The notes below the pieces were generated by a model. The model worked only from the letters and a program-made list of their open reading frames with translations. It was not told where the DNA came from and did no database searches. From NCBI RefSeq assembly GCF_001544615.1, contig NZ_FCNV02000007.1, positions 186,001 through 250,000 of the forward strand: a DNA stretch of 64,000 bases. Direction: 5' to 3'. Made by a program: the position numbers and the translations under genes. This document shows positions 49,565 to 64,000 of the stretch, piece by piece (the stretch's first letter is position 1; every line of letters starts with the position of its first letter). Source of the stretch: Caballeronia concitans (GTDB taxonomy: Bacteria; Pseudomonadota; Gammaproteobacteria; Burkholderiales; Burkholderiaceae).

Positions 49565-49768
49565 CGCGTGGCTCATATCTGCTCGATGTTCGCAATGGGA
49601 TTCGGCGGCGCACTGTGCGACCGCATTGGACGCCGTCGCGCGATGCGGGTCGGGTCGCGCTCGATACTGGTGGCGTTCATCGCGTTCTTCCCGCTGATCC
49701 TGAGCGGACATGTCGTTCTGATTTCGATGTGGGCGATTCACGCCGGTCCTGAAACCTATGGAGAGTGA
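49565..49768 (+). pseudogene. Internal fragment of an MFS transporter
   Basis: In a frame shifted from the preceding fragment the DNA reads VAHICSMFAMGFGGALCDRIGRRRAMRVGSR, then SILVAFIAFFPLILSGHVVLISMWAIH and a stop. The GALCDRIGRR loop is the MFS motif A copy between the two halves of a carrier, followed by one or two helices. Both ends are missing. Deletion between a hydratase gene and a carrier gene explains the junction. Confidence 0.75.
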
Positions 49769-49769
49769 C

Positions 49770-50858
49770 ATGGAGAAGACACGTATCGCTGTGGCCGGTG
49801 CCGGGTACATCGGTCTCGAACATATTCGCGTCATTCGGGAAAGCACGAGCTGCGTGCTGTCGGCGGTCGTCGATCCCTCGGATGCTGCGGGCGATGTCGC
49901 CGCGACGGCCGGCGTTCCGCATTACCGCTCGCTCGACGAACTCATTGAGCACGACCGCCCCGATGGCGTCGTGCTTGCCACGCCGAATCAGCTCCATGTC
50001 CAGCACGCGCTGTCGTGCATGCGAGCCGGCTTGCCGATGCTGTTGGAAAAGCCCATTGCGCCCACCGTGGAAGAGGCCGAGGCACTCGTTGCCGCCGCCG
50101 ACCGATACAACGCGTCTATGCTGATCGGGCATCATCGGGCGCATAGCCCGATCATGGCGCGAGCAAAGGAAATCATCGAAGAGGGAACCCTCGGTCCGCT
50201 CGTTGCCGTGATGGGCAGCGCGCTATTCTTCAAGCCCGATCACTATTTCACGGCGGCGCCTTGGCGCAAGGAGCCGGGGGCCGGCCCGATACTGCTCAAT
50301 CTGATTCACGAGATACACAATCTCCGCATGCTCTGCGGTGACATCGTTGCCGTGCAGGCTTTCTCGTCCAACGCGACGCGCGGATTCCAGATAGAAGATA
50401 CGGCCGCCATCATTCTGCGTTTCGCGACCGGCGCGCTGGGCACATTCCTGCTTTCCGACACAGCAGCGAGCGCACGAAGCTGGGAGCAGACCTCGCAGGA
50501 GAACAAGGCGTATCCGTCGTATGCCGACGAAGACTGCTATGCGATCGCGGGCACTTTCGGGTCGCTGTCGATTCCCACCATGCGCGTGAAAACCTACGGC
50601 AAGGCAGAGGACCGGTCGTGGTGGAAGCCGTTCGATGTAAGTGTCGCGGAATTGACGCGCGACGATCCGCTCAAGCATCAGATGGAGCACTTCAGGCGAG
50701 TGATACGAGGCGAAGCGACTCCTCTCGTCACCGCACGCGACGGTTTGCAGACCCTTCGTATCACCGACGCAATCGTGAAGGCCGCTAAAACGGGAGCCGT
50801 TGTCGAGACGACCGCCGCGGCTGCACGCAGCGCCGACTCAAACACTGGGACGAGATGA
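49770..50858 (+). CDS. Gfo/Idh/MocA-family oxidoreductase
   Basis: NAD(P)-dependent dehydrogenase of 362 residues. The dinucleotide fold is TRIAVAGAGYIGLEHIRVI and the family signature MLLEKPIAPTVEEAEAL contains the EKP Lys. The catalytic-side segment is GPILLNLIHEIHNLRMLCGDI, with the His of the D/N..H pair. These enzymes oxidise sugar, inositol or cyclitol hydroxyls, so a quinate-like cyclic polyol is plausible. A GGAG site supports ATG 49770 over 49758. It overlaps the second aroQ gene (ATGATG). Confidence 0.87.
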   Translation: MEKTRIAVAGAGYIGLEHIRVIRESTSCVLSAVVDPSDAAGDVAATAGVPHYRSLDELIEHDRPDGVVLATPNQLHVQHALSCMRAGLPMLLEKPIAPTVEEAEALVAAADRYNASMLIGHHRAHSPIMARAKEIIEEGTLGPLVAVMGSALFFKPDHYFTAAPWRKEPGAGPILLNLIHEIHNLRMLCGDIVAVQAFSSNATRGFQIEDTAAIILRFATGALGTFLLSDTAASARSWEQTSQENKAYPSYADEDCYAIAGTFGSLSIPTMRVKTYGKAEDRSWWKPFDVSVAELTRDDPLKHQMEHFRRVIRGEATPLVTARDGLQTLRITDAIVKAAKTGAVVETTAAAARSADSNTGTR

Positions 50859-51295
50859 TGAAAACGTTTCTCATGCTTCACGGCATCAATCACAACATGT
50901 TCGGCAAGCGCGATCCCGTTCAATACGGAACGGCCACGCTGGCTGACATCGACGCGCAGCTTCACGCGCTGGCCAAAGAGCTGGGTGTCGAGGTCGAGAG
51001 TTATCAGACCAATAGCGAAGGCGACATGTGCGAGCGAATCCACAAGGCGTTCGCCGATAACGTCGACGGCGTGCTGATCAATGCGGGTGCTTGGACGCAT
51101 TACAGCTACGGCATACGAGACGCACTCGCGATATTGACTGTGCCTGTCGTCGAGATTCACATGTCGAATATTCACGCGCGGGAAGCGTTCCGCCATCACT
51201 CGGTGTTCGCAGAGATCGTGAAAGGTCAGATTTGCGGCTTCGGCGTCGATAGTTATTCGCTCGGGCTACGAGCGGTGGTGTCGGCGGCAGGGTGA
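50855..51295 (+). CDS. aroQ: Type II 3-dehydroquinate dehydratase, second copy
   Basis: A 146-residue dehydroquinase-fold protein. HGINHNMFGKRDPVQYG keeps the Asn, Arg and catalytic Tyr; INAGAWTHYSYGIRDAL keeps the active-site His lost in the 40501 paralogue; EIHMSNIHAREAFRHHS and GQICGFGVDSYSLGLRAV complete the active site. It therefore looks catalytically competent for 3-dehydroquinate or a near analogue. It is coupled with the Gfo/Idh/MocA dehydrogenase, giving a plausible oxidation-dehydration pair. Confidence 0.87.
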   Translation: MMKTFLMLHGINHNMFGKRDPVQYGTATLADIDAQLHALAKELGVEVESYQTNSEGDMCERIHKAFADNVDGVLINAGAWTHYSYGIRDALAILTVPVVEIHMSNIHAREAFRHHSVFAEIVKGQICGFGVDSYSLGLRAVVSAAG

Positions 51296-51365
51296 TCGTC
51301 GCGGGACGGGAAGACTTGCATTCCGCCCCGCACTCGCTTCTCAGCATGCCACCGTAGCCGGCGAT

Positions 51366-51735
51366 CCCTGTGGTAGAAGTCGGCGATCGCGCGAACTTCC
51401 GGTCGGTTGAGCCTCGCCGCGAGACGCGTCGCATCGGCGACGCTGTTGACGAGCGCCGACTCTTTGCGCTTAAGCGGTTCGATCACGAGCGTCGTGCCGC
51501 AACCACTCAACGAATCGGCGCATCAGTCGAGCGCCTTCGAGAATTCGTTTTCGGTTTCGCTCTTCGTCCAGCCATTCGGGATGTTTCGCGCGCTAGCCAA
51601 GCAACTGCACGGCGCGATCGAAATACGCGTGATTGCGTGCGTCGTGTTTATCCGGACCGACGCGACGAACGTCGTGCGGCAACAAATAGCCGAACGCCAG
51701 TGCAGGCAAGGGAAGGTCCCCAGCCGAGGTGCGGA
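51366..51735 (-). pseudogene. Decayed TIM-barrel sugar isomerase/epimerase-like gene
   Basis: The minus strand carries AFGYLLPHDVRRVGPDKHDAR and NHAYFDRAVQLLG, then an in-frame TAG, then HPEWLDEERNRKRILEGARLMRRF. In a shifted frame it continues TLVIEPLKRKESALVNSVAD and ATRLAARLNRPEVRAIADFYH. IEPL.R.ES..N and the ADFYH ending are typical of the xylose-isomerase-like TIM barrel, a fold that includes IolE-type and some 3-dehydroshikimate dehydratases. At least one stop and one frameshift break it. Confidence 0.6.
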
Positions 51736-51760
51736 ATCGTCATTGCCGACTCCATGAAAG

Positions 51761-52065
51761 TCAGTACTTCAGTTTGGCAAGCGAACGCAGCACGTCTGGC
51801 GTCGTGGTTGGAAAGCCACCGAACATGTCTCCGACGAGACGCCCATCTGCATCGCGGCGCACTGCGTTACATGAACCGGCGATATTGTTTTCTAGCGTGA
51901 AGACGGATTCGAGGAATGCGGGAAAGGGTTCAGGTTTGCATCCCGTCGGACAACGACTGCATCGACACCTGCATGCTCGAAGTACGGGTTATCGATCATC
52001 GGCGATTTGAAGGTGTGCGTTGGAAAACCGATGTGCGCGATGATGGCGGTGTTGCCGGCGATCAT
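51761..52065 (-). pseudogene. Broken second shikimate-dehydrogenase gene
   Basis: After an AGGAC site, ATG 52065 opens MIAGNTAIIAHIGFPTHTFKSPM, then IDNPYFEHAGVDAVVVRRDANLNPFP. A one-base deletion near 51924 shifts the frame to AFLESVFTLENNIAGSCNAVRRDADGRLVGDM. The protein then stops at LRSLAKLKY. This is the N-terminal substrate domain of an AroE-type protein lacking the catalytic NVT.PFK segment and the NADP domain. It is a different lineage from the intact aroE at 48548. Confidence 0.72.
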
Positions 52066-52097
52066 GCTTTGTCCTGGAAAGTCTTAGATGAAACTTA

Positions 52098-52126
52098 GGT
52101 CGAGCACTTGAAGTAAGTGCCCGACC
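52098..52126 (-). terminator. Terminator of the minus-strand MFS gene
   Basis: GGTCGAGCACTT and AAGTGCCCGACC form a 12-bp stem with one mismatch and a 5-base loop. It begins 11 bases past the MFS stop codon, and TAAGTTT follows on the minus strand. Confidence 0.55.
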
Positions 52127-52136
52127 GCAGCAGTCG

Positions 52137-53582
52137 TTATCGGGCCTGCATGGAAGCCGCCGCGAGTCTCGCTTCGCCTAACGATTCCTCCCGGAGTTGC
52201 TCGTACTGTTGCTTTGGAATCGGCACAGCGTTTTTCTTGCCGAGATCGTCGAGGCGCAGGCGGTACGTTTCTCTCGCGCTCCATGCAGCCAAAGCCGACA
52301 CGATGGTGACACCGAGCGTGAGTGAGCCGATCATCATAGGCACGTTGTGCGACCCCGGAGGCGCGACCGCTGCGAAGAGCGCCGGCAGCAGTGCAGTGAT
52401 GGTCGTCCCGATGTTCTGTGCGATCGCCATCGCCGAGACGCGGAAGCGCGTCGGAAAGAGTTCGGGATAGTAGCCCGGAAAGACAGCGTTATAGCCTTGA
52501 TAGACAACGCCCCACATGAGTATCGACATCACAAAAGCGATCGGCAGATTGTGAATGCTGATGGCATATAAGTATGCAAATGACAAGAGCCCGGATGAGA
52601 GTGCGCCGAAGATCATCGGGATTCTCCGTCCAATGCGGTCCGACAAATTTCCGACGTACGGGATGACAAGCACCGCCACGATGTTTCCGACCACTGGAAT
52701 CCACAGATACACACTCGCGTGGAAGTTGATGCCGTAAGAAGGCTGCACCGCGTAAGCCGCGCCGAACACTGTGGCGACTACCGGAATGACGTTCATGAAC
52801 GCCATGCAGACGACGCGAAGCATGTCGGGCCAGCTGAACCTGAACGCTTCGAGAATCGGCGCGCGGGCGACCTGACCGCTCGCGTCTTCCTTGGCGAACG
52901 CAGCCGTCTCGTCCACCTCACGACGGATGATGAAGCCTGCCACGAGAACGAGCGCGCTAAGCAGGAAGGGGATGCGCCATCCCCACGCGACGAACGCGTC
53001 TTGGGACATGTAGTACGAAAGGGGCAAGAAGACGGCAGCAGCGAGAATCTGGCCCGCTTGCACGCCTTGCAGCGTGAAGCTCGCGAAGTATCCGCGTCTG
53101 CCGAACGGTGCCTGCTCCATGATCATCGAACTGGCGCCTGATATCTCGCCTGCGACTGCAAAACCTTGAATCAGACGCAGAATCACGAGTAATGCCGGCG
53201 CCAGCATTCCCACTGATTGATACGTGGGCAGCAGACCGACGGCCATCGTCGAGACGCCCATCAGGAACATGCAGATCAGCAGCACGGTCTTTCGGCCGTG
53301 CGTGTCGCCCCAATGCCCGAGCACGAACGCGCCGATCGGACGCGCGACATAGCCGACGCCGTAGGTCGCCAGCGACGCCACAATTGCAATCTTCGGATCG
53401 CCTTTAGGGAAGAAAATCTGAGGGAAGATCAGTGCCGCTGCCTGCGCGTAGATGAAGAAGTCGTAATACTCGAGCGCGGAACCAATCCAGCCGCTCGCTC
53501 TGGCCTTTCTTGCCTGTTTTCGGGCTCTCTCATCCATGAGCCCGTCGCTCGGGCCGCCTTGCGACGGCAATCTGTTTTCCAT
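52137..53582 (-). CDS. MFS transporter of the metabolite:H+ symporter family, second copy
   Basis: Twelve-helix MHS carrier of 481 residues. It has ASGWIGSALEYYDFFIYAQAAALIFPQIFFPKGDP, GHWGDTHGRKTVL, LRLIQGFAVAGEISGASSMIMEQ and NLSDRIGRRIPMIFG. The pattern is close to ShiA-like shikimate permeases, which fits a shikimate-type cluster. An AGGAG site eight bases before ATG 53582 decides the start over 53600. Divergent from the LysR gene at 53736. Confidence 0.88.
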   Translation of the reverse strand: MENRLPSQGGPSDGLMDERARKQARKARASGWIGSALEYYDFFIYAQAAALIFPQIFFPKGDPKIAIVASLATYGVGYVARPIGAFVLGHWGDTHGRKTVLLICMFLMGVSTMAVGLLPTYQSVGMLAPALLVILRLIQGFAVAGEISGASSMIMEQAPFGRRGYFASFTLQGVQAGQILAAAVFLPLSYYMSQDAFVAWGWRIPFLLSALVLVAGFIIRREVDETAAFAKEDASGQVARAPILEAFRFSWPDMLRVVCMAFMNVIPVVATVFGAAYAVQPSYGINFHASVYLWIPVVGNIVAVLVIPYVGNLSDRIGRRIPMIFGALSSGLLSFAYLYAISIHNLPIAFVMSILMWGVVYQGYNAVFPGYYPELFPTRFRVSAMAIAQNIGTTITALLPALFAAVAPPGSHNVPMMIGSLTLGVTIVSALAAWSARETYRLRLDDLGKKNAVPIPKQQYEQLREESLGEARLAAASMQAR

Positions 53583-53735
53583 GAACGTCTCCTGAATCAA
53601 ACGGTTCGGAGCAGCGTCGACGGCTGCATCTCTCGTGAGGCATCCTGATACGGACTCCCAGATCCAAGATACGGGGATGCATCAGCGGACGCAATGCAAT
53701 GGATACAATGGCGTCATTGCGATGGACAATATGCC

Positions 53736-54641
53736 GTGAGCACATCCGAACTTCCTGATCTCAAACTCCTTCAGCTTTTCGACTTGCTATATGACGTTCG
53801 CAGCGTCACGCGGGCAGCCGAGCAGCTCGGGCAAAGCCAACCGACCATCAGCATCTGGCTGGGGCGTCTGCGTGAACATCTGCAGGACCCGCTATTTGTA
53901 CGCACGCCGGGCGGCATGACGCCGACACCGCAGGCGGACGCGCTAATAGGTCCGTGCCGACAAATTCTCGAATCGCTTCGGCGGTTTGCTGCATGGGAGA
54001 TTTCGTTTGATCCGAGTACGGCCAAGCGCCGCTTTCGCATCTGCATGACAGACGCCAGCCACATCACGCTCTTGCCGAGAATGCTGGCTCACGTCCGCGC
54101 CGAAGCACCCGGTATTCGGCTGGAAGCCGCGCGGATCGACGGGAACACGGAGAGGGCGCTGGAGTCGGGTGAAGCCGATCTTGCGATCGGACACGTTCCT
54201 TGGCTCGGCGGCGGGATGTATCAGCAACAGCTATACATGCAGGATTGGGTGTGCCTGGCCAATCGAAATCACCCGCGCGTGCGCAGCAGGCTGAGCGTGA
54301 AACAGTACTGTAACGAGGGGCACGTGATTGTCGCTGCCGGCACGGGAGCGCAGTTGCTTGAACAAGCCTTGCTACGCGAAAACATTGAACGTGACGTTGT
54401 GCTTGAGCTTCCGGGCATGCTTGGGCTGGGATCGATCATCGCATCGACCGACCTGATCTCCACGTTGCCGCGAAACATTGGCGAGACGTTGGCTCGAGTA
54501 AATGATATCGCGGTACATTCGTGCCCTTTCTCGGTCGACAAATTCGCTGTGCGGCAGCACTGGCACGCGAAGTACCACCACGAGGCAGGCAATCGGTGGC
54601 TTCGCTCCGTTGTGGCAGACCTCTTCCTGGAGAGGAACTAG
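53736..54641 (+). CDS. LysR-family regulator, NodD/LinR-like branch
   Basis: Regulator of 301 residues from GTG 53736 (an ATG at 53694 is the alternative). The DNA-binding part is LPDLKLLQLFDLLYDVRSVTRAAEQLGQSQPTISIWLGRLREHLQDPLFVRTPGGMTPTPQA. The FRICMTDASHITLLPRMLAHVRAEAPGIRLE segment marks the NodD/LinR/PcaQ-type branch, which often senses aromatic or cyclic acids. It is divergent from the ShiA-like carrier and probably controls it, perhaps through CGCAAT arms in 53690-53721. Confidence 0.87.
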   Translation: MSTSELPDLKLLQLFDLLYDVRSVTRAAEQLGQSQPTISIWLGRLREHLQDPLFVRTPGGMTPTPQADALIGPCRQILESLRRFAAWEISFDPSTAKRRFRICMTDASHITLLPRMLAHVRAEAPGIRLEAARIDGNTERALESGEADLAIGHVPWLGGGMYQQQLYMQDWVCLANRNHPRVRSRLSVKQYCNEGHVIVAAGTGAQLLEQALLRENIERDVVLELPGMLGLGSIIASTDLISTLPRNIGETLARVNDIAVHSCPFSVDKFAVRQHWHAKYHHEAGNRWLRSVVADLFLERN

Positions 54642-55197
54642 GCGCCCGGCGGCGGCATGAGCATTAACGAATAAGTTTTAACGCAGGCGGATTTCGTGAT
54701 TTCAGCTATTGATTCACGGTAAGCCGTCGGAAACGTATGTTCAACTGGTGCCAGGATCGGCGGGCGGCAACGTGTCCATCGAGGCTCAGTCGTCGGTCGG
54801 GAAGGACGGCGTTCGACTGCGCCGAGTCGCGACTACAATCAAGCGGCCCGCTCTAGCCGCATCGGCTTCGGATGGCGAATGTTGGCAAGCGGCGAGAACG
54901 GCCCGTAGCTGAAGCCTCGGTATGTGGAATAACGACGGTCCGACCGTCAGCAACAGGTCGCAACGACGCATCGCTCCCGCGCCGACGTTCTATGTCAAGT
55001 TGCGGGCACTCGTCCTGAAAAGCGACGTCACGAAGATTAATGCCGCACGCTTTCGCTTCCGGAATTCAAGACAGAGCGTTCTTTCCACGCGCCATTATGT
55101 CGAAAGAAACCTGAAGAGTACGAAATACGCAGTGATGCCGCCCGCATGCGAAGCGTTAGCGACCGACTCGTCGTAAAGTCGGGGAACCTTTTTCGGC
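54642..55197. other. Non-coding stretch without recognisable gene
   Basis: Together with 55221-55535 this is the longest gap in the window. Short frames exist on both strands, but none has a ribosome site, family resemblance or typical codon pattern. It may hold remains too decayed to name. Confidence 0.5.
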
Positions 55198-55220
55198 ATT
55201 GATAACGTTTGAACATCAAT
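55198..55220 (+). promoter_or_regulatory. LysR-type box upstream of the citrate-lyase-like operon
   Basis: A perfect dyad ATTGAT-N11-ATCAAT (T-N11-A, LysR style) lies about 315 bp upstream of the lyase genes. The same dyad occurs at 59618-59640 before the citrate carrier gene. Similarity between the two sites runs on for some 20 bases to a shared ATTGCACTT, so the two promoters appear to be built alike. Confidence 0.6.
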
Positions 55221-55535
55221 GCTTCGGAAAATTGCACTTCTTGTTTGGACTTTCTTGCGCAAATATCTGGTCTCAAGACGTTCATAAAAGAGAACGCGTC
55301 GGAGACAGGCACGAAGCGCAGAACAGCGTTTCGCTGCATCCCAGTGCACGCCCGTTCGCGGCTGCCGCCAAGAGTCATCGACGCATATCTCGCGTAACCC
55401 ACCTCGCTAGTTGAATCCTGCCGCCGCTTTCGAGCGCGTCCACGGCAGCGGTGCATCTCACGCCTGCCGCAGCGAGTCGATGGACCCTCAGTATCCGCTT
55501 CAGTCGTCATTGCTCAAATCCAGGAGACACGTCAC

Positions 55536-56834
55536 ATGCAGATCACCGGAATGTTGCACGGCACGCGCCTGTTGCAATTCGTCGGCTTTCCGTCCAGCGA
55601 AGTTCTAGGGCCGGGCGCCAGCGAAGAAGAGATCAAGTCGCTGATCGACAGACATGGTCAGATATTCATCAAGCCGGTGTTCAAGGGCGGTGTGGGCAAG
55701 AAAGGCAAAGCCGGCCTGCTCGGCCGCGCGACTGATCTCAAGACGGCACTGGCGGAGAAGGAACGGCTGTATTTCGCCGAGCACGCAGTGGGACACGTGA
55801 AAGCGAAAGCAAACGGCGTGACCTTCGAAGCCGGCGTGCCCGCCAAGCACGAAGTCTATTTTTCGATCACCGATTCCACGCGTTTCCGCGCGCCGACGAT
55901 GACGCTCTCGCATATGGGCGGCATGGATATCGAGGAAGTCGATCCTAAGCACGTCGCGATGGTGCCGTTCGATGCGCTCACCGGATTGAAGGCCTTCGTT
56001 GTCGCGAATGCGCTCAGCGAAATCGGCGCGCCGCGTGAAATCATCTCGCCGCTCGTGCAGCAGTTGCCGAAGCTCTGGGAGCTCTTCCACGACTTCGGCA
56101 TGACGACGCTCGAGCTCAACCCGATCCGCATGCGCGAGGACAAGAAGGGACGCCTCACGCCCGTGGCATGCGACTTCAAGTGCGGCTTCGATCGCGACGA
56201 TCCACGCTTCTCGCGGCTCGGTTTGCCTGCGCATCTGTTCGCCGCCGATTACTCGGATTTCGAGCAGGAGATCAATCAGCTTCGCACCCACCAGGGGCAA
56301 AGCGATGTCTACGTGATCAACGACAAGGGAACGATCCTCGCGCCCACCTTCGGCGGCGGCGCGAACTCGCTCGTCACGGAAATGCTCGGCGACGCGGCGA
56401 TCATCTCGTCGGACTTCGGCGGCAATCCTCCGTATGAAAAGATGAAGGAAGTGGCGCGCATCTGCTTCCGGCACTGGCTGAAGCAGTCGAACGTGCTCTT
56501 CATCATCGGCGGCAAGTCGAACAATACCGACATCTACGAAACGCTGCGCGCCATGGCCGATGCGCTGCGCGAGCACTTCAGCGAGCACGGTCCGACGCCG
56601 CTCTATGTCGTCCTCGGACGCGGCGGCCCGAACCTCGTGCGCGGCATGTCCGCACTGCGCGACACCTGCGATTCGCTCGGCCTGCCTTATCGCCTCTTCG
56701 GTTTCGACTCCGACATCAGCGAAGTCATTCAGTACGCGCGCCATGCCGATGTGTGGATGCAATCGGGTGGACGCGCACAGATCGCGGCGCGCATCGGCGC
56801 GCGCGACGCGCAATCGCAAACGACATCGGCTTGA
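55536..56834 (+). CDS. ATP-citrate-lyase-like small subunit (ATP-grasp plus citrate-binding domain)
   Basis: Protein of 432 residues; AGGAG precedes ATG 55536. Residues about 1-230 form a succinyl-CoA-synthetase-type ATP-grasp domain: GQIFIKPVFKGGVGKKGKAGLLG, MTLSHMGGMDIEEVDPKHV and TTLELNPIRMR, the last with the metal-binding Asn. Residues about 240-420 resemble the citrate-binding domain of ATP-citrate lyase: APTFGGGANSLVTEMLGD, VLFIIGGKSNNTDIYETLRAMADAL and VVLGRGGPNLVRGMSAL. SucC lacks this last pattern. It would activate citrate together with the large subunit encoded 11 bp downstream. Confidence 0.78.
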   Translation: MQITGMLHGTRLLQFVGFPSSEVLGPGASEEEIKSLIDRHGQIFIKPVFKGGVGKKGKAGLLGRATDLKTALAEKERLYFAEHAVGHVKAKANGVTFEAGVPAKHEVYFSITDSTRFRAPTMTLSHMGGMDIEEVDPKHVAMVPFDALTGLKAFVVANALSEIGAPREIISPLVQQLPKLWELFHDFGMTTLELNPIRMREDKKGRLTPVACDFKCGFDRDDPRFSRLGLPAHLFAADYSDFEQEINQLRTHQGQSDVYVINDKGTILAPTFGGGANSLVTEMLGDAAIISSDFGGNPPYEKMKEVARICFRHWLKQSNVLFIIGGKSNNTDIYETLRAMADALREHFSEHGPTPLYVVLGRGGPNLVRGMSALRDTCDSLGLPYRLFGFDSDISEVIQYARHADVWMQSGGRAQIAARIGARDAQSQTTSA

Positions 56835-56845
56835 GGAGATCGAAC

Positions 56846-59545
56846 ATGCACAAGCAAGGCAACAGTCACTTCAAATACTTCGTCGGAATCCAGTCGCTGG
56901 CGGACATCGCCACGCGCGAAGATCGCGTCTGCGTGCTCAACATCCTTGGCGGCGAATCATCGGACGTGACGCCCGTGAGTCACGCCTTCTCGGGCGCGAA
57001 TGTCGTCTTCGGCACCGCGCCCGGCAAAGGCGGACAGGTGCTCGCGACGTCCGCGGGCGACATTCCCGTCTTCAACAACGTGCGAGAGGGTCTGGAAGCC
57101 GGGCATCGATTCAACTGCGGCGTCGTCTACCTGCCGCCTTCGGCCGCGCGCGACGGCGTGGCTGAGCTGATCCGCGTGAACCCGGATTTGCGTAAGATCT
57201 TCATCATCACGGAAAAGATCGCCGTGCACGACGCCCGTGAGATCCGCGCGATGGGTCAGCAGGCGGGCATCGACATCTTCGGCGCGAACGGGCTGGGCGT
57301 CGCGGACTCGTGGCAACGCGTGCGCATCGGCGGCGCGCTCGGCGGCGACGATCCGGGCGCGACCTTGCGCCAAGGATCGATCGCTATCTTCTCGAACTCC
57401 GGCGGCTTCAGCACCACGATTGCGCAATACCTGCGCATGAGCGGCTGGGGGACTTCGACGGTCATTTCCAGCGGGAAGGACGTCTACATCCACTATGCCG
57501 CGCCGGAATTCGCCTTCGCGCTTGCAAACGATGCGCGCAGCAAGGCGGCCGTGCTGTACTGCGAGCCCGGCGGCTATTACGAGGCCGATGCGGACTTCAC
57601 GAAGCCCGTGGTGGCGTGCGTGGTGGGCCGCTGGAAAAGCCGTCTGACGCGCGCGGTGGGACATGCCGGCGCGATGGCGGGCGGTGCCGACGATGCGCTC
57701 GCGAAGGAGCGCTGGTTCATGGAGAAATTCGGCGTCGAACGGCTCTTCACGCCCGGCGATCCATGCTGCTCGGCGAAGGGTGCGGTGGTGACGAACATCG
57801 CGCATATTCCCGCCGCGCTCACGGCGGTGATGCGGGCGAACGCCACGATGCCCGACTTCGAGCCCGAAGGCAGCCTTGCCCTCAAGCCCTGGTTCGGCTC
57901 CGATCAGGGGCTCGAATTGCCCGACGATCTCGCGCTTGCAGTCGTGAAAGCTGTCGCGCCCTATGACGAACAAGTCGCGCGGGTGAACGACCAGATCGGC
58001 GCAATCCCGCCGCGGCAGGCGTTGAAGGATGCATCGGGCGCCTCGCAGATGGATGCGAAGACCCAGGTGAGCAGCCTGCACGGCGTATCGATGCTCGACG
58101 CGGCGACGCATTCCTTCGAAGCGAACGTATGCCTCGCGCTGTTGCGCGAGTTCGGCGGCGCGAACGACGAGAAACTGATCGACGTCGCGGTCGGCGCGGC
58201 GGTGAACCTGTACGGGACGCCCGAACTGGCGGCGGCGCAGGCAGCGCGCGAGGCGGGCAATGCCCCCAATGCCGTGCTCGCCGCTGCTGCTGCCATCGTC
58301 GGGCCGAATCGCCAGCGCGCGGCGAGGGAGGCGGCGAAGCTGATGATCGACCGGTTCGCCGCAGCTAAACTCGTCGACGCATTCGATCGCGATTTCGACA
58401 TCGACGCCATCCACACCGAAGGTAGCGCGGCACTGTTCTCCGAGGAACCGGATCAGAAGGCCGAAGCCATGCTCGCCGGCCTCGCCGCCCGTGGCGTGAG
58501 TTCCGTCTTTGTACGATGGATTGCCGGCGGCCCGGGCCATCCGCGTGCGGACGCCGTGCTCGCGGCGATCACGACGACACTCGCCTGGGGCCCGCTCATG
58601 CGCAAGCGCATCTCGCGTCTGACGGCGGAGAGCCTGCCGTGGTGGACGACGCTGTTCGGCACGTTGATCGGCGCTTCGGCGGACGCATCGCGCCATCGTC
58701 CCGACAGCTTCTGCGACATTTCCACCTCCGCGTTGCTCGGCGAGCGCTCGCTGACGGAGATTGCGTTCGCGGCGCTGCTCGGCCTCGAACCGTCCGCCGA
58801 CGACCTGTTCGCTTTCAGGACGCTGACCGGATTGCTGCTCACGAACGGACCGGGTGCGATCTCGGCGCAAGGCGCGAAGGGTGCCGTATCCGCCGATGGC
58901 CCCGAGTCACCCGAACGCGTGCAACTGAACAAGGCGTTGACGGGCTTTCTGACGCACACCGGCTATACGCACGGCGGCAACGGCTACGAAGGCATCGCGT
59001 TTCTCAACGATGCGTTTCGCGACAGCGCCCTCGACGATCCCGCCGACCCGCATCACGGCGTCGATCTCGAAGCGCTCGCGCGCCGTTCCGTCGAGCATTA
59101 CGCGCGATACAAGGCGAGCCAGAAGCAGGCCGGCAGCCTCGACATCGCCAAGCTGCCGGGCGTCAATCACCCGGTTTTCAAGGACAAGCCGGTGAATCAC
59201 GATCCGCGCGAGGTGTTCATCGCCGAGCTGTACGAGGCGCGAGGCGAGTACAACGCGTTTCATGCGTACTACCGCGCGCTGGTGCAGGCCTTGTTCGACG
59301 CGGGCGTCTCGCGCAGCGTCTACTGCGTCAATGTCGATGCCGTGATCGCCGCGCTGCTGCTGAAAATGCTGTGGCAGCCGCTCAAACGCGGCGCATTCAG
59401 CGAGGCCGATCTCGAAACCGCTGCGTTCACGATCTTTCTGTATCCGCGCATGCTCGGTTGCGCCGCGGAAATCGACGATCACCTGAACCGCGGTCGAAAC
59501 ATGGACACGCGCACGCCCGCGACACAGTGCCGTTTCGTGGCCTGA
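56846..59545 (+). CDS. ATP-citrate-lyase-like large subunit (CoA ligase plus citrate-synthase-like domain)
   Basis: Protein of 899 residues after a GAGGAG site. The N-terminal half is a SucD-like CoA-binding and ligase module with GSIAIFSNSGGFSTTIAQYL and the phosphohistidine loop LTRAVGHAGAMAGG (His273). The C-terminal part (from about 610) follows the citrate-synthase-like lyase domain of ATP-citrate lyase: TNGPGAISAQGAKGAVS, LTHTGYTHGGNGYEGIAFL, GVNHPVF (His775) and YCVNVDAVIAALLLKMLW (Asp831). A segment of about 200 residues between them has no counterpart I recognise, making the protein about 300 residues longer than usual AclA. Expected reaction: citrate, ATP and CoA to oxaloacetate and acetyl-CoA, or the same on an analogue. 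Confidence 0.76.
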   Translation: MHKQGNSHFKYFVGIQSLADIATREDRVCVLNILGGESSDVTPVSHAFSGANVVFGTAPGKGGQVLATSAGDIPVFNNVREGLEAGHRFNCGVVYLPPSAARDGVAELIRVNPDLRKIFIITEKIAVHDAREIRAMGQQAGIDIFGANGLGVADSWQRVRIGGALGGDDPGATLRQGSIAIFSNSGGFSTTIAQYLRMSGWGTSTVISSGKDVYIHYAAPEFAFALANDARSKAAVLYCEPGGYYEADADFTKPVVACVVGRWKSRLTRAVGHAGAMAGGADDALAKERWFMEKFGVERLFTPGDPCCSAKGAVVTNIAHIPAALTAVMRANATMPDFEPEGSLALKPWFGSDQGLELPDDLALAVVKAVAPYDEQVARVNDQIGAIPPRQALKDASGASQMDAKTQVSSLHGVSMLDAATHSFEANVCLALLREFGGANDEKLIDVAVGAAVNLYGTPELAAAQAAREAGNAPNAVLAAAAAIVGPNRQRAAREAAKLMIDRFAAAKLVDAFDRDFDIDAIHTEGSAALFSEEPDQKAEAMLAGLAARGVSSVFVRWIAGGPGHPRADAVLAAITTTLAWGPLMRKRISRLTAESLPWWTTLFGTLIGASADASRHRPDSFCDISTSALLGERSLTEIAFAALLGLEPSADDLFAFRTLTGLLLTNGPGAISAQGAKGAVSADGPESPERVQLNKALTGFLTHTGYTHGGNGYEGIAFLNDAFRDSALDDPADPHHGVDLEALARRSVEHYARYKASQKQAGSLDIAKLPGVNHPVFKDKPVNHDPREVFIAELYEARGEYNAFHAYYRALVQALFDAGVSRSVYCVNVDAVIAALLLKMLWQPLKRGAFSEADLETAAFTIFLYPRMLGCAAEIDDHLNRGRNMDTRTPATQCRFVA

Positions 59546-59565
59546 ATGCCTGGATCCGCGAGCCC

Positions 59566-59600
59566 GGCCGGGCGCTGATTCACCGTAGCGCCCGGCCTTT
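59566..59600 (+). terminator. Rho-independent terminator after the citrate-lyase-like genes
   Basis: A perfect 11-bp GC-rich stem, GGCCGGGCGCT with AGCGCCCGGCC around a 10-base loop, followed by TTT. It begins 21 bases after the stop codon, so the carrier gene downstream must rely on its own promoter. Confidence 0.75.
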
Positions 59601-59617
59601 GCCGACGGTATCGAACG

Positions 59618-59640
59618 ATTGATAACGAGCGAACATCAAT
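59618..59640 (+). promoter_or_regulatory. LysR-type box upstream of the citrate carrier
   Basis: Second perfect ATTGAT-N11-ATCAAT dyad, same arms and spacing as at 55198-55220, with further matching bases downstream. It is about 100 bp before the carrier start. Confidence 0.6.
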
Positions 59641-59741
59641 CGTTGAGAACATTGCACTTATCTTTTTGATGGCGACAAGCCATCATTCCCGAAAGACAAG
59701 AGCGGACAGACCGCAAATTCGGGACTTCAGGAGACACATCG

Positions 59742-61040
59742 ATGCATCCCTCACCTTCCACCCTTTCGCCGGGACATTCAAAGGCCGCGGCGGTTTTCCG
59801 CGTAACGGCCGGCAACTTCCTGGAGCAGTTCGACTTCTTTCTGTTCGGTTTCTACGCGACGCAAATCGCCGGCGTGTTCTTTCCGGCATCGAGTGAATTC
59901 GCTTCGCTGATGATGACGTTCGCGGTCTTCGGCGCCGGATTCCTGATGCGTCCGCTGGGCGCGATCGTGCTCGGCGCCTACATCGACGATGTCGGCCGCC
60001 GCAAGGGCCTGATCGTCACGCTTTCCATCATGGCGAGCGGCACCATCCTGATCGCATTCGTGCCGGGCTATGCGGCGATCGGTCTTCTGGCACCCGCGCT
60101 CGTGCTCGTCGGACGTCTGTTGCAGGGATTCTCCGCAGGCGCCGAACTGGGTGGCGTGTCGGTCTATCTCGCCGAGATGGCCACGCCCGGCCGCAAGGGC
60201 TTCTTCACGAGCTGGCAGTCCGCGAGCCAGCAGGTCGCGATCGTCGTGGCCGCCGCGCTTGGCTTCGCGCTCAATCAATCCCTCGACGCCACGGCCATCG
60301 CGAGCTGGGGCTGGCGCGTGCCGTTCTTCGTCGGCTGCATGATCGTGCCGTTCATCTTCATGCTGCGTCGCAATCTGGAAGAAACGCAGGAATTCAAGGC
60401 ACGCCAGCATCGCCCGAGCATGAAGGAAGTGTTCCGCACGCTGGTCGAGAACTGGACCGTCGTGATCGCCGGCATGATGCTGGTGGCGATGACTACCGCG
60501 AGCTTCTATCTCATCACGGTCTACGCGCCGACTTTCGGAAAGACGGTCCTGCATCTGAGCACGGCGGACAGTCTGCTCGTGACCTTGTGTGTAGCCGTGT
60601 CGAACTTCGTGTGGTTGCCGGTCGGCGGGGCGCTCTCGGACAAGATCGGCCGCAGGCCGCTGCTCGTCGGCATGACGCTGCTCGCTATCGCAACCGCATA
60701 CCCCGCGCTGTCGATACTCGCCCACGCGCCGAGCTTCATCAACATGCTGCTCGTGCTGCTTTGGCTCTCGTTCATGTACGGCATGTATAACGGCGCGATG
60801 GTCGTCGCGCTGACCGAGGTCATGCCGGTTCAGGTGCGCGTGGCGGGTTTTTCGCTTGCTTACAGCCTTGCGACGGCGGTGTTCGGCGGCTTCACGCCGG
60901 CAATCTCGACGGCGCTCATTCACATGACCGGCGACAAGGCCGCGCCCGGATACTGGATGAGCTTCGCCGCTGGCTGCGCGCTTCTGGCGACGTTCGCGCT
61001 CTATCGCCGGCGCGCAGGAACGCTGACTCCGGCGCACTGA
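59742..61040 (+). CDS. citA: Citrate/tricarboxylate:H+ symporter (MFS)
   Basis: Twelve-helix MFS carrier of 432 residues very close to enterobacterial CitA and Tcu[109 protein letters not shown] and [36 protein letters not shown]. These carriers take up citrate or tricarballylate with protons. AGGAG precedes the ATG. It has its own promoter region after the 59566 terminator. Confidence 0.9.
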
Positions 61041-61090
61041 CGCGTCGCTCGTTGCGCCAAGCGTCTATTGAATCCCACCCAACTCCGATC

Positions 61091-61873
61091 ATGAAAAATC
61101 TGTTTCCGAAACTATGCGCGGCGGCGCTCATCGCAACTTCGGCCGCTGCGTCCAGCGTGCAGGCCGCCGACCTGCACGTCATGAGCTCGGGCGGCTTTAC
61201 CGCGGCGTACAAGGTGCTGGGTCCGAGATTCGCGTCCGAGACGGGCAACACGCTCGACACCGCGCTCGGTCCGTCGATGGGCAAATCGCCCGAAGCCATT
61301 CCCAACCGCCTCGAACGGGGCGAGCCGGCCGACGCCGTCATCATGGTCGGTTATGCGCTAGACGAGCTGATCAAGCAAGGCAAGGTCGTGCCCGGATCGC
61401 GCGTGGAACTGGCGGATTCGCGCATCGGCATGGTCGTGCGCGACGGTGCGGCGAAGCCCGACATCAGCTCGGAGGAAGGCCTCCGGCAGACTCTGCTGCA
61501 TGCGAAGTCGATCGCCTACTCGGACAGCGCGAGCGGTGTCTATATCGAGCGGGAACTGTTCACGAAGCTCGGCATAGAGAATCAGGTGAAGCCCAAGGCG
61601 AAGATGATCCCGCGCATACCGGTGGCCTCGGTCGTCGCGAACGGCGATTACGAGATCGGCTTTCAGCAGGTGAGCGAGTTGCTGCCGGTCAAGGGCGCGA
61701 CCTTCGTCGGAAAGATTCCGGAATCCCTGCAGTCCGTCACGCGTTTTGCCGCCGGCATTCCCGTGAGCGCACAGCATCCGAAGGAAGCGAAGGCGCTCCT
61801 CGACTATCTGGCATCGCCCGGCGTTCAGGCAGATGTGAAATCGACGGGGCTCGATAGCGTCGCCGCGCATTGA
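61091..61873 (+). CDS. Orphan ModA-like periplasmic binding protein
   Basis: Exported binding protein of 260 residues: a signal peptide (LFPKLCAAALIATSAAASSVQA) followed by DLHVMSSGGFTAAYKVLGPRFASETG and LERGEPADAVIMVGYALDELIKQGKVVPGS, the ModA/SBP-11 pattern. It continues VASVVANGDYEIGFQQVSELLPVKGA. No permease or ATPase is nearby. The gene follows the citrate carrier by 50 bp on the same strand, so it may be co-expressed and bind an organic anion rather than molybdate. It is convergent with dctA. Confidence 0.83.
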   Translation: MKNLFPKLCAAALIATSAAASSVQAADLHVMSSGGFTAAYKVLGPRFASETGNTLDTALGPSMGKSPEAIPNRLERGEPADAVIMVGYALDELIKQGKVVPGSRVELADSRIGMVVRDGAAKPDISSEEGLRQTLLHAKSIAYSDSASGVYIERELFTKLGIENQVKPKAKMIPRIPVASVVANGDYEIGFQQVSELLPVKGATFVGKIPESLQSVTRFAAGIPVSAQHPKEAKALLDYLASPGVQADVKSTGLDSVAAH

Positions 61874-61887
61874 TGCAGCCTTCTCCG

Positions 61888-63198
61888 TCAACTTCTCGAG
61901 GTACTGCTCGCATGGTCCTCTGCGCCGTCGGCGTCGCCCGGCGTCGGCGCGCGCAGCATCCGGACGAGACGCGCGCGATCGCAGGCGCCTTCCCACATCG
62001 AAACGAAGATCACCGCGCACGCGTTGCTGATCACGCTCGTGAGGGCGCGTGCTTCGGACATGAAGCGGTCGATGCCCACCAGTAGCGCCACGCCCGCGAC
62101 GGGGAGATCGGGAATCACCGTCAGCGTCGCGACGAGCGCCACGAGGCCGCTCCCGGACACGCCGGCCGCTCCTTTGGACGTAAGCAGCATGACCGCGAGC
62201 ATCATCGCGATCTGCGACGCGGAGAGCGAGACGTCGCAGGCCTGCGCGATGAACATCGAAGCAAGCGTCAGGTAGATCGCGGTGCCGTCGAGATTGAACG
62301 AATAGCCTGCGGGCAACACGAGTCCCACGACACCCTTGTCGCAGCCGAGCATTTCCAGCTTCGTGATCAGGCGCGGCAACACCGGTTCCGTCGACGAAGT
62401 CGCCAGGACGATCAGCAATTCCTCGCGCAGATAACGCAAGAGCCGCCAAAGGGCGAAGCCGTGCAAGCGCGCGAGCGGAGCAAGGACGAGTGCCACGAAC
62501 AGCACGCATGCCACATAGAACGACACCATCAACATGCCGAGTGAGCCGACCGAGCGAATCCCGAAGCGGCCCACCGTGAAAGCCATCGCGCCGAATGCGC
62601 CGAGCGGCGCGAGCCGCATGATCATCGCGAGAATGCGAAACAGCGCCTGGGCGATGCCATCGATGAGCGCGAGTACAGGCCGGCCTGCACCCGGATGCAG
62701 ATTCAGTGCGAAGCCGAATAGCAGCGAGAGCAGCAGCACCGGCAGCACCTCGCCCTTCTCGAAGGCGCCAAGCATCGTTTCGGGGATGACGTTCAGTGCG
62801 AAGGCGACGAAGCCATCCGGATGCGCCTGCTTCACATACTGCGCGAAGATCGTCGTATCGAGACTTCGGGCGTCGATATGCATGCCCGCGCCGGGCCGCA
62901 TTGTAAATGCCGTGACGAGTCCCAGCGCGAGCGCCACGGCAGTCAGAAAATAAAAGAGTCCCAACGCCCGGAAGATTACGCGACCGATGGCCTTTCCGCT
63001 CGCGACAGACGTGACCCCGGAGACGATCGTGCAGAAGACGATCGGCGTAATCATCATCCTTACGAGGCCGACAAAGCCGTCGCTGACAGGCTTGAGAAGC
63101 GAGCCGGCTTGCGGCCAGAAGTGCCCGAGTGCCATGCCGAGCAACATGCCCAGCACGACCTGCACATAGAGCAGACGAAGCGTTCTCGCCACCCTCAC
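61888..63198 (-). CDS. dctA: C4-dicarboxylate:cation symporter
   Basis: Sodium- or proton-coupled DAACS carrier of 436 residues. It has RLLYVQVVLGMLLGMALGHFWPQAG, FVGLVRMMITPIVFCTIVSGVTSV, the serine-rich reentrant loop VLATSSTEPVLPRLITKLEMLG and the transport motif GYSFNLDGTAIYLTLASMFIAQA, then LTSKGAAGVSGSGLVALVATL. The start is GTG at 63198, which overlaps the stop of the LysR gene (GTGA). It takes up succinate, fumarate, malate and perhaps oxaloacetate, a product of citrate cleavage. Confidence 0.9.
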   Translation of the reverse strand: MRVARTLRLLYVQVVLGMLLGMALGHFWPQAGSLLKPVSDGFVGLVRMMITPIVFCTIVSGVTSVASGKAIGRVIFRALGLFYFLTAVALALGLVTAFTMRPGAGMHIDARSLDTTIFAQYVKQAHPDGFVAFALNVIPETMLGAFEKGEVLPVLLLSLLFGFALNLHPGAGRPVLALIDGIAQALFRILAMIMRLAPLGAFGAMAFTVGRFGIRSVGSLGMLMVSFYVACVLFVALVLAPLARLHGFALWRLLRYLREELLIVLATSSTEPVLPRLITKLEMLGCDKGVVGLVLPAGYSFNLDGTAIYLTLASMFIAQACDVSLSASQIAMMLAVMLLTSKGAAGVSGSGLVALVATLTVIPDLPVAGVALLVGIDRFMSEARALTSVISNACAVIFVSMWEGACDRARLVRMLRAPTPGDADGAEDHASSTSRS

Positions 63199-64000
63199 GA
63201 TGCGGGCTTCCTGCTCGGGCGCGCTTTCCGAGCTACGTCGTCGGTTGATGTGCCGCTGCTCCTGACATCGCCTCTCATATCGAGAATCGTTTGATGAAAC
63301 TCCTGCGCGGTCGGCGTCAGCGTGCGTCCGCGGCGCCTCACGATCCCCACCCGTCGCTTCACGACGGGGTCGACCAGCGGCACACTCGTGAGGATGTGGT
63401 GATTGCGTCCGGGCATGGCCATCGACGGTACGGCGGCGACGCCAAGGCCCGCTTCCACCAGGCCAAGCATGGTCGTGACGTGACGTGTTTCGCACACGCT
63501 CGGTGCGCGCGGCGACACAGCCGAAAGAGCCTGATCGAGCAACAGACGATTGCCTGACGTCTTGTCCACGGAAACGTATTCGTGCTCGTAGAGCTCGTTC
63601 CAGGTCACGCGTTTCTTGCGCGCGAGCGGGTGGTCACGACGGCAAGCCGCAACGAACTGCTCCTGCAGCAGCACTTTGAAGTCGACCTCGGACTCCTGGC
63701 TTCCCATGAAGCTGACACCGAAATCGGCCTCGCCGCTGATGACGGCGGAGAGCACCTCGTTCGCGCTCGCATCGAGCAATTTCACCCTGATGCGCGGAAA
63801 ACGGCGATGGAAGCTCGCAACCGCGCTTGGCAGAAAGTAGTAGGCCACGGATGGCACACAGGCAATGGTTACATGACCCAATCGGCTCGATGAGACATCG
63901 CGGATGCCGAGCAGGGCGACATCGAGATCGTCCAGCAACTGCTCCGCGCTCGGCGCGAATGCCCGGCCGACAGTCGTGAGCGTCACGCTGCGCGTGGTGC
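63195..64000 (-). CDS. LysR-family regulator (N terminus beyond the window)
   Basis: C-terminal 268 residues of a LysR regulator. The frame is open to the window edge and starts there with TTRSVTLTTVGRAFAPSAEQLLDDLD, the end of the DNA-binding domain and the linker helix. The effector domain has VTIACVPSVAYYFLPSAVASFHRRFPRIRVKLLD, GEADFGVSFMG and GLVEAGLGVAAVPSMAMP. It is translationally coupled to dctA and is the nearest candidate to bind the two ATTGAT-N11-ATCAAT boxes. Confidence 0.87.
   Translation of the reverse strand, partial: TTRSVTLTTVGRAFAPSAEQLLDDLDVALLGIRDVSSSRLGHVTIACVPSVAYYFLPSAVASFHRRFPRIRVKLLDASANEVLSAVISGEADFGVSFMGSQESEVDFKVLLQEQFVAACRRDHPLARKKRVTWNELYEHEYVSVDKTSGNRLLLDQALSAVSPRAPSVCETRHVTTMLGLVEAGLGVAAVPSMAMPGRNHHILTSVPLVDPVVKRRVGIVRRRGRTLTPTAQEFHQTILDMRGDVRSSGTSTDDVARKARPSRKPAS

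Follow-up and report, generated by a model that had tools for sequence, protein, structure and literature searches.

The type II form of ATP-citrate lyase (ACL) is little studied. In Magnetococcus MC-1, Mmc1_3638/3639 was postulated to be such an enzyme and citrate cleavage was detected (PMC6783814), and the family has likewise been postulated for tubeworm symbionts, with Thioflavicoccus as a further example. Published type II ACLs are from autotrophs, and gammaproteobacterial ones are found with genes of the reductive tricarboxylic acid (TCA) cycle, the aclAB genes being clustered with acn, idh, mdh, korABCD and tfrAB (PMC6315080). Planctomycetes sequences fall between citryl-CoA synthetase/citryl-CoA lyase (CCS-CCL) and type II ACL (PMC5459899). 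We analysed a 64,000-nucleotide stretch of Caballeronia concitans DNA (contig NZ_FCNV02000007.1, positions 186,001 to 250,000; “the window”), in which two adjacent forward-strand genes (55536..56834 and 56846..59545) appear, by sequence, to encode a type II ACL. With a probability of about 0.7, we read the pair as a heteromeric type II ACL serving tricarboxylate catabolism, on the basis of sequence family, motifs, a module duplication, gene context and a shared operator sequence.

Assignment of the gene pair

The small-subunit open reading frame (ORF; 55536..56834, 432 aa) matched the Pfam models Citrate_bind (PF16114, 55.9 bits, cut-off 26.8) and ATP-grasp_2 (PF08442, 54.8 bits, cut-off 29.5), and its residues N329, T331 and R362 were invariant in 22 rows. 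The large ORF had been listed from a GTG at 56753, inside the small gene. An ATG at 56846, 11 bases 3′ of the small-gene stop, was preceded by GGAG, and alignments of relatives mostly began at this residue (a few at residues 2 to 9), indicating a large protein of 899 aa (56846..59545). It comprised a CoA-ligase alpha part (residues ~1–330), a linker and two citrate-synthase-like modules. The Pfam models CoA_binding (26.4 bits) and Succ_CoA_lig (38.5 bits) each scored above cut-off, and no Pfam match above cut-off was found past residue 280. The predicted phosphohistidine H273 (codon 57662..57664) in the GHAGA motif was invariant in all 61 aligned large-subunit rows, 54 of them distinct.

Both subunits found their best solved-structure match in the Hydrogenobacter citryl-CoA synthetase 6hxq. 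For the small subunit (6hxq_B, E 1.2e-33) ACLs came next, and for the large subunit (E 3.1e-35) succinyl-CoA synthetases ranked above ACLs. Identities to full-length sequences taken here as type II were 55–58% for the large and 66–69% for the small subunit (56.6% and 68.7% to locus L128). Published type II ACL primers encode VAKEEWF and NGFEAIA (PMC3522073); the homologous stretches here read LAKERWF and NGYEGIA, so these sites are conserved. The pair shared with the systems of MC-1, the tubeworm symbionts and Thioflavicoccus its two-gene form, similar lengths, the tested catalytic residues and the primer motifs. Assignment as succinyl- or malate-CoA ligase was rejected: on NCBIfam models the small protein scored 59.7 bits for the succinate enzyme (cut-off 370) and 34.6 bits for the malate enzyme (cut-off 604), the large one scored 110.4 bits (cut-off 336), and a citrate-synthase-like fold was present. 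A literature search, which left out a 2011 review naming type II ACL, yielded no publication that we recognised as describing the pair in Burkholderiales or the module duplication.

Tandem modules in the large subunit

By its alignment to module B, residues 396–613 (58031..58684) form a degenerate citrate-synthase-like copy, module A, standing before an intact module B (residues 614–899, 58685..59542), which itself matched the profiles of citrate synthase and of the C-terminal part of a type I ACL; the arrangement reflects a duplication in tandem. The two modules aligned with a score of 78.6 (P 3.9e-11), the best of 200 shuffles reaching 29.4. Module B residues H709, H775, R788, D831, R868 and R889 were each invariant (61/61 rows). 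In module A, H775 corresponded to a gap and R868 to T606 (R in a single row of 61), D831 to D569 (D in 27/61), and the R788 position kept R in 44/61. In local-mode hhalign profile–profile comparison, GVNHPVF and NVDAVIA fell on the motifs GIGHR and NVD, respectively, of one type I ACL (P 7e-4). Module A alone gave no significant match to citrate synthase (P 0.65) or type I ACL (P 0.73), and its identity depends on the module B alignment and predicted helices. Since a profile of the C-terminus (A3) gave no match to PDB sequences up to E 10, the citrate-synthase part was recognised by fold and profile–profile comparison only. The fold list for the large-subunit model held 50 citrate or methylcitrate synthase entries, given by first and last aligned residues; in many of them the model range began around residue 120, a long way from the module.

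The pair resembled type I ACL and human ACLY in its ATP-grasp, citrate-binding, CoA-ligase and citrate-synthase-like parts, the phosphohistidine, and the NVD and G-x-x-H motifs. In type I ACL, however, R follows the motif histidine (GIGHR) and DHGP is present, whereas P (GVNHP) and TNGP are found here. The type I large subunit L081 (620 aa) is of a size that would roughly fit a single citrate-synthase-like module; the protein here is 279 aa longer, and the tandem duplication would explain these extra ~280 residues. In Hydrogenobacter the citryl-CoA lyase (6hxp, also in the fold list) forms a chain of its own, 256 residues long, whereas the lyase part here is fused and duplicated.

These results confirm the observations of a preliminary description made from the sequence alone. 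It had read the small protein as an ATP-grasp joined to a citrate-binding domain, and the profiles that it proposed agree; it had also recognised a phosphohistidine CoA ligase (His273 in VGHAGAM) with a citrate-synthase-like end, in a subunit about 300 residues longer than usual, and each of these was found. One outcome that it named as contradicting it, a succinyl- or malate-CoA ligase with no citrate-synthase part, was not seen. Its ACL architecture stands as the type II kind rather than type I: the large subunit is 899 aa long, has two modules and carries GVNHP and TNGP, where type I would have ~620 aa with GIGHR and DHGP.

The pair might instead be an acyl-CoA ligase for succinate, malate, tricarballylate or aconitate that makes the CoA ester only, its C-terminal modules being structural or regulatory. 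The best NCBIfam matches were indeed succinyl-CoA ligase subunits, though far under cut-off, and the structure ranking of the large subunit, the lack in tricarballylate and aconitate of the hydroxyl required for aldol cleavage, and acyl-CoA thioesterase genes near some loci fit such an enzyme. An inert module, however, would not need the six invariant residues of module B, and we regard a ligase-only function as improbable. Small acyl-CoA thioesterase-like genes recurred next to or near the pair at L071:11702-12088, L035:11444-11827, L051:10830-11234 and L070:3911-4288 (Alphaproteobacteria and Parazoarcus).

Distribution, gene context and a shared operator-like repeat

Full-length relatives of the large protein were found in 16 of 37 genomes of the strain and its genus. 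Profile A3 matched 23/249 family genomes (some with fragments only) and 39/398 genomes drawn from the phylum, the strain's own included; a PF16114 scan at class level matched 4/274 genomes and none of 14 controls. A scan of genome contigs gave at least 31 loci, from Paraburkholderia, Caballeronia, Variovorax, Rhizobacter, Piscinibacter, Zoogloeaceae, Sulfuritalea, Microvirga, Methylorubrum and Skermanella, among others, and 19 plasmid records carried at least 80% of the large protein. The gene was annotated as a CoA-binding or hypothetical protein in the six annotated stretches examined. In a tree of 61 large subunits, 28 rows from Burkholderiales, Rhodocyclales and Alphaproteobacteria formed a separate branch with weak support (78; L072 and L073 are long rows), and the other side held 31 rows that we label Magnetococcia-like and two gammaproteobacterial rows. 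Same-genus remnants, namely a small-gene end with a large-gene start (L019:6447-6968) and the last 31 large-gene residues before a TcuC-like gene (L020:6936-7028), indicate that the pair seems to have been lost in some lineages. Other CoA-ligase alpha/beta-like pairs of the genus (L021:6819-8548 and L022:6680-8363) were 22–31% identical to parts of the ligase domains and gave no match to the citrate-synthase modules.

Downstream of the pair lies a gene for a TcuC-like tricarballylate/proton symporter of the major facilitator superfamily (MFS; 59742..61040, +; NCBIfam NF011656, 756 bits, cut-off 445). The carrier had been described as CitA-like; its place after the pair is right, but TcuC-like is the better name. 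It is followed by a stand-alone ModA-like solute-binding protein (61091..61873, +, 260 aa from ATG; PF13531, 142.9 bits) with no ATP-binding cassette (ABC) partners adjoining, a candidate periplasmic aconitate isomerase. The lead is the aconitate isomerase of Pseudomonas WU-0701, which we take to be ModA-like. On the opposite strand are a DctA-like dicarboxylate carrier (61888..63198; NF002461, 534.9 bits, cut-off 513; start inferred from the annotated L069 relative) and a LysR-type regulator cut at the window end (63195..64000). Relatives of the symporter, binding protein and regulator occurred together on Cronobacter and Acinetobacter plasmids (76–77%, 55–58% and 50% identity), where no lyase pair was present in the 4 kb examined to either side.

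The context of the pair was surveyed with 21 query proteins in 44 loci of the branch (5 from relatives, 31 genome contigs and 8 plasmids), some from one genome and some cut by contig ends. At least one gene for tricarboxylate transport or catabolism lay near the pair in 29 of the 44: a TcuC-like gene at ≥60% in 17, TctA in 8, a 2-hydroxycarboxylate transporter (2HCT) in three, TcuA with TcuB in three and a PrpF-like isomerase in four. For the 2HCT protein of L038, the model of the citrate:cation symporter gave 439 bits, under its cut-off of 549. The branch thus lies mostly with tricarboxylate uptake genes, in bacteria of soil and plants, whereas the published type II genes are found in autotrophs. 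TcuABC is the tricarballylate utilisation system. The module resembled TcuABC and the trans-aconitate operon tar (PMC11495376) in its TcuC-like carrier and isomerase candidate, and differed in carrying the lyase pair, citrate lyase being nowhere mentioned in the available parts of PMC11495376 and PMC13188880 (term count 0).

An inverted repeat, ATTGAT-N11-ATCAAT, occurred exactly twice in the window, at 55198..55220 (+), 338 bp ahead of the small-subunit gene (counted from its first base to the start codon), and at 59618..59640 (+), 124 bp before the transporter gene; none was found in 300 Markov-simulated windows. With up to three mismatches, 16 sites were counted against 13.75 expected by chance, so that only exact sites are informative. 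In 11 of 17 loci, the window included, the lyase gene was preceded by an exact site and the symporter gene by a further site (exact in 8, one or two mismatches in 3); the ten besides the window were Burkholderiaceae. L023 had the lyase-gene site only. A GCACTT flank and neighbouring bases were also common to the copies by eye. The T-N11-A form is the pattern of LysR-type regulators, and the LysR gene at 63195 is likely the regulator of the module. It is the better candidate since L069, which has a TetR gene 5′ of the pair, keeps a LysR gene at this position; one is annotated there in L075 too. The distance of 338 bp may mean a long leader of the small-subunit gene. As a possible operator of the MFS gene on the plasmids, a two-mismatch site was seen upstream in Acinetobacter and none in Cronobacter, counts within chance, and this candidate was dropped.

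The small-subunit gene is preceded by a long intergenic stretch (54642-55535). Between the pair and the second repeat, a strong terminator-like hairpin without a long T run lies 3′ of the large-subunit gene (59566..59597, +; segment 59556-59608, −34.1 kcal/mol, z −4.1 against shuffles); by eye its conservation was not seen in the spacers of all relatives. No Rfam match at the gathering threshold was found in 53500-64000. Farther 5′ (49758-53600), type II 3-dehydroquinate dehydratase-like and Gfo/Idh-like ORFs (both named by eye) accompany an MFS gene whose best models, below cut-off, were a metabolite/H+ symporter and a shikimate transporter; this is perhaps a quinate or shikimate cluster. Elsewhere, a second binding-protein gene with a response-regulator gene stood near the pair in L031, L036, L042–L044, L046, L047, L051 and L070, with a histidine-kinase gene in all of these except L046. 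The L051 protein matched PF13531/PF13416, and the set is possibly a second sensing or uptake system.

In the gammaproteobacterial genome G408 the pair was flanked at one end by genes for aconitase and monomeric isocitrate dehydrogenase (IDH) and at the opposite end by two fumarate-reductase-like genes (named by eye from translations, the aconitase also by profile), resembling the type II aclAB clusters of PMC6315080. The acn, idh, frdA and frdB genes of L082, used as queries, matched L082 and, except for idh, L083, and none of the 44 branch loci or of 10 Magnetococcia-like loci. Here only L082 and L083 had a reductive-TCA-type cluster, a context that characterises a single lineage and is not a property of the enzyme. 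POR-family gamma domains in the C. concitans genome occurred only within ORFs of 1177–1251 aa, whereas G408 and G524, genomes of the reductive TCA type, had in addition stand-alone ones (200 and 217 aa), that of G524 about 11 kb from the citrate-binding gene on the same contig. The C. concitans genome also held four citrate synthase family matches (three above 400 bits), six aconitase-family matches and a RuBisCO large subunit (G000:C22:180563-181486, 445 bits). “Heterotroph”, as the organism had been called, therefore needs care, and a Calvin–Benson–Bassham-type autotrophic ability is possible. That the pair itself serves a reductive TCA cycle and CO2 fixation is a doubtful proposal: type II relatives can occur in such clusters and type II ACL autotrophs can have RuBisCO (PMC6315080), but the L082 queries failed throughout the branch (weak evidence, given loci cut by contig ends and the equally negative Magnetococcia-like loci), POR gamma is not stand-alone, and ordinary citrate synthases are present. 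We found no support for this cycle in the organism and consider such a role highly improbable.

Proposed pathway and its significance

In the pathway that we propose, aconitate, tricarballylate or citrate would enter through the TcuC-like symporter. Trans-aconitate may be isomerised to the cis form by the solute-binding-like protein, and aconitase would convert aconitate to citrate. From homology, citrate would be bound by the small subunit, which together with the large-subunit residue H273 would turn it first into citryl phosphate and next into citryl-CoA, consuming ATP and CoA; module B would split citryl-CoA into acetyl-CoA and oxaloacetate, and module A would have a structural, pseudo-dimer role. 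One regulator could control both gene pairs through the common operator. Such cleavage would spare acetyl-CoA synthesis through malic enzyme and pyruvate, and the malic enzymes encoded near the pair in L031, L036, L043 and L046 could drain the C4 product. The catabolic route suggested in the preliminary description is thus partly supported by the tricarboxylate genes, but the aconitase bypass that it included would hold for citrate alone as substrate.

Several observations weigh against a citrate lyase of tricarboxylate catabolism. In the literature examined, no report of purified type II ACL activity was found, the enzyme being “postulated” (PMC6783814). Scores on NCBIfam citryl-CoA lyase models lay far under cut-off (30.6 against 212), and the AlphaFold models were of moderate confidence (mean pLDDT scores 65.6 and 66.9; 42–52 around residues 671–710). 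Fifteen of the 44 loci had none of the tested tricarboxylate genes, a figure with no background rate for comparison; neither repeat was present in five of the 17 loci (L030, L013, L014, L015 and L033, four of them Burkholderiaceae), and the exact repeat was found in 31 of 141 loci, those of known origin being Burkholderiaceae only. For growth on citrate, aconitase gives the cell another route.

The histidine of the type I DHGP motif is replaced by N667 (placed by eye) in all 61 rows. This replacement, and gene contexts that differ among lineages, would suit an enzyme of the same catalytic architecture acting on another 2-hydroxytricarboxylate (hydroxycitrate, methylcitrate or alkylcitrate) and yielding a different acyl-CoA or keto acid; but the aconitase-adjoining L082 and L083 have identical residues, among them N667. 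This speaks for citrate as the substrate of the family as a whole, and we think another substrate unlikely. With a type II ACL of tricarboxylate catabolism as the preferred reading, we lean slightly towards a broader proposal: type II ACL would be a distinct citrate-cleaving machine with an in-chain module pair, of which one member is active and the other dead. A widespread branch of the enzyme would have moved from carbon fixation to an inducible, aerobic route that takes tricarboxylates of plants (trans-aconitate, tricarballylate and citrate) and makes acetyl-CoA directly from the imported acid.

The type II ACL family itself was known; new here are the module duplication, the separate branch with tricarboxylate genes and the paired operator. 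The tandem module would account for type II ACL being as long as it is, and offers a testable link in the evolution of citryl-CoA lyase, ACL and citrate synthase. Since ACL genes are used to mark the reductive TCA cycle, a catabolic branch, if true, would mislead pathway prediction. Cultivable Paraburkholderia and Caballeronia would be a practical system for type II ACL biochemistry, and the module is a candidate route by which plant-associated bacteria may consume trans-aconitate and related acids.

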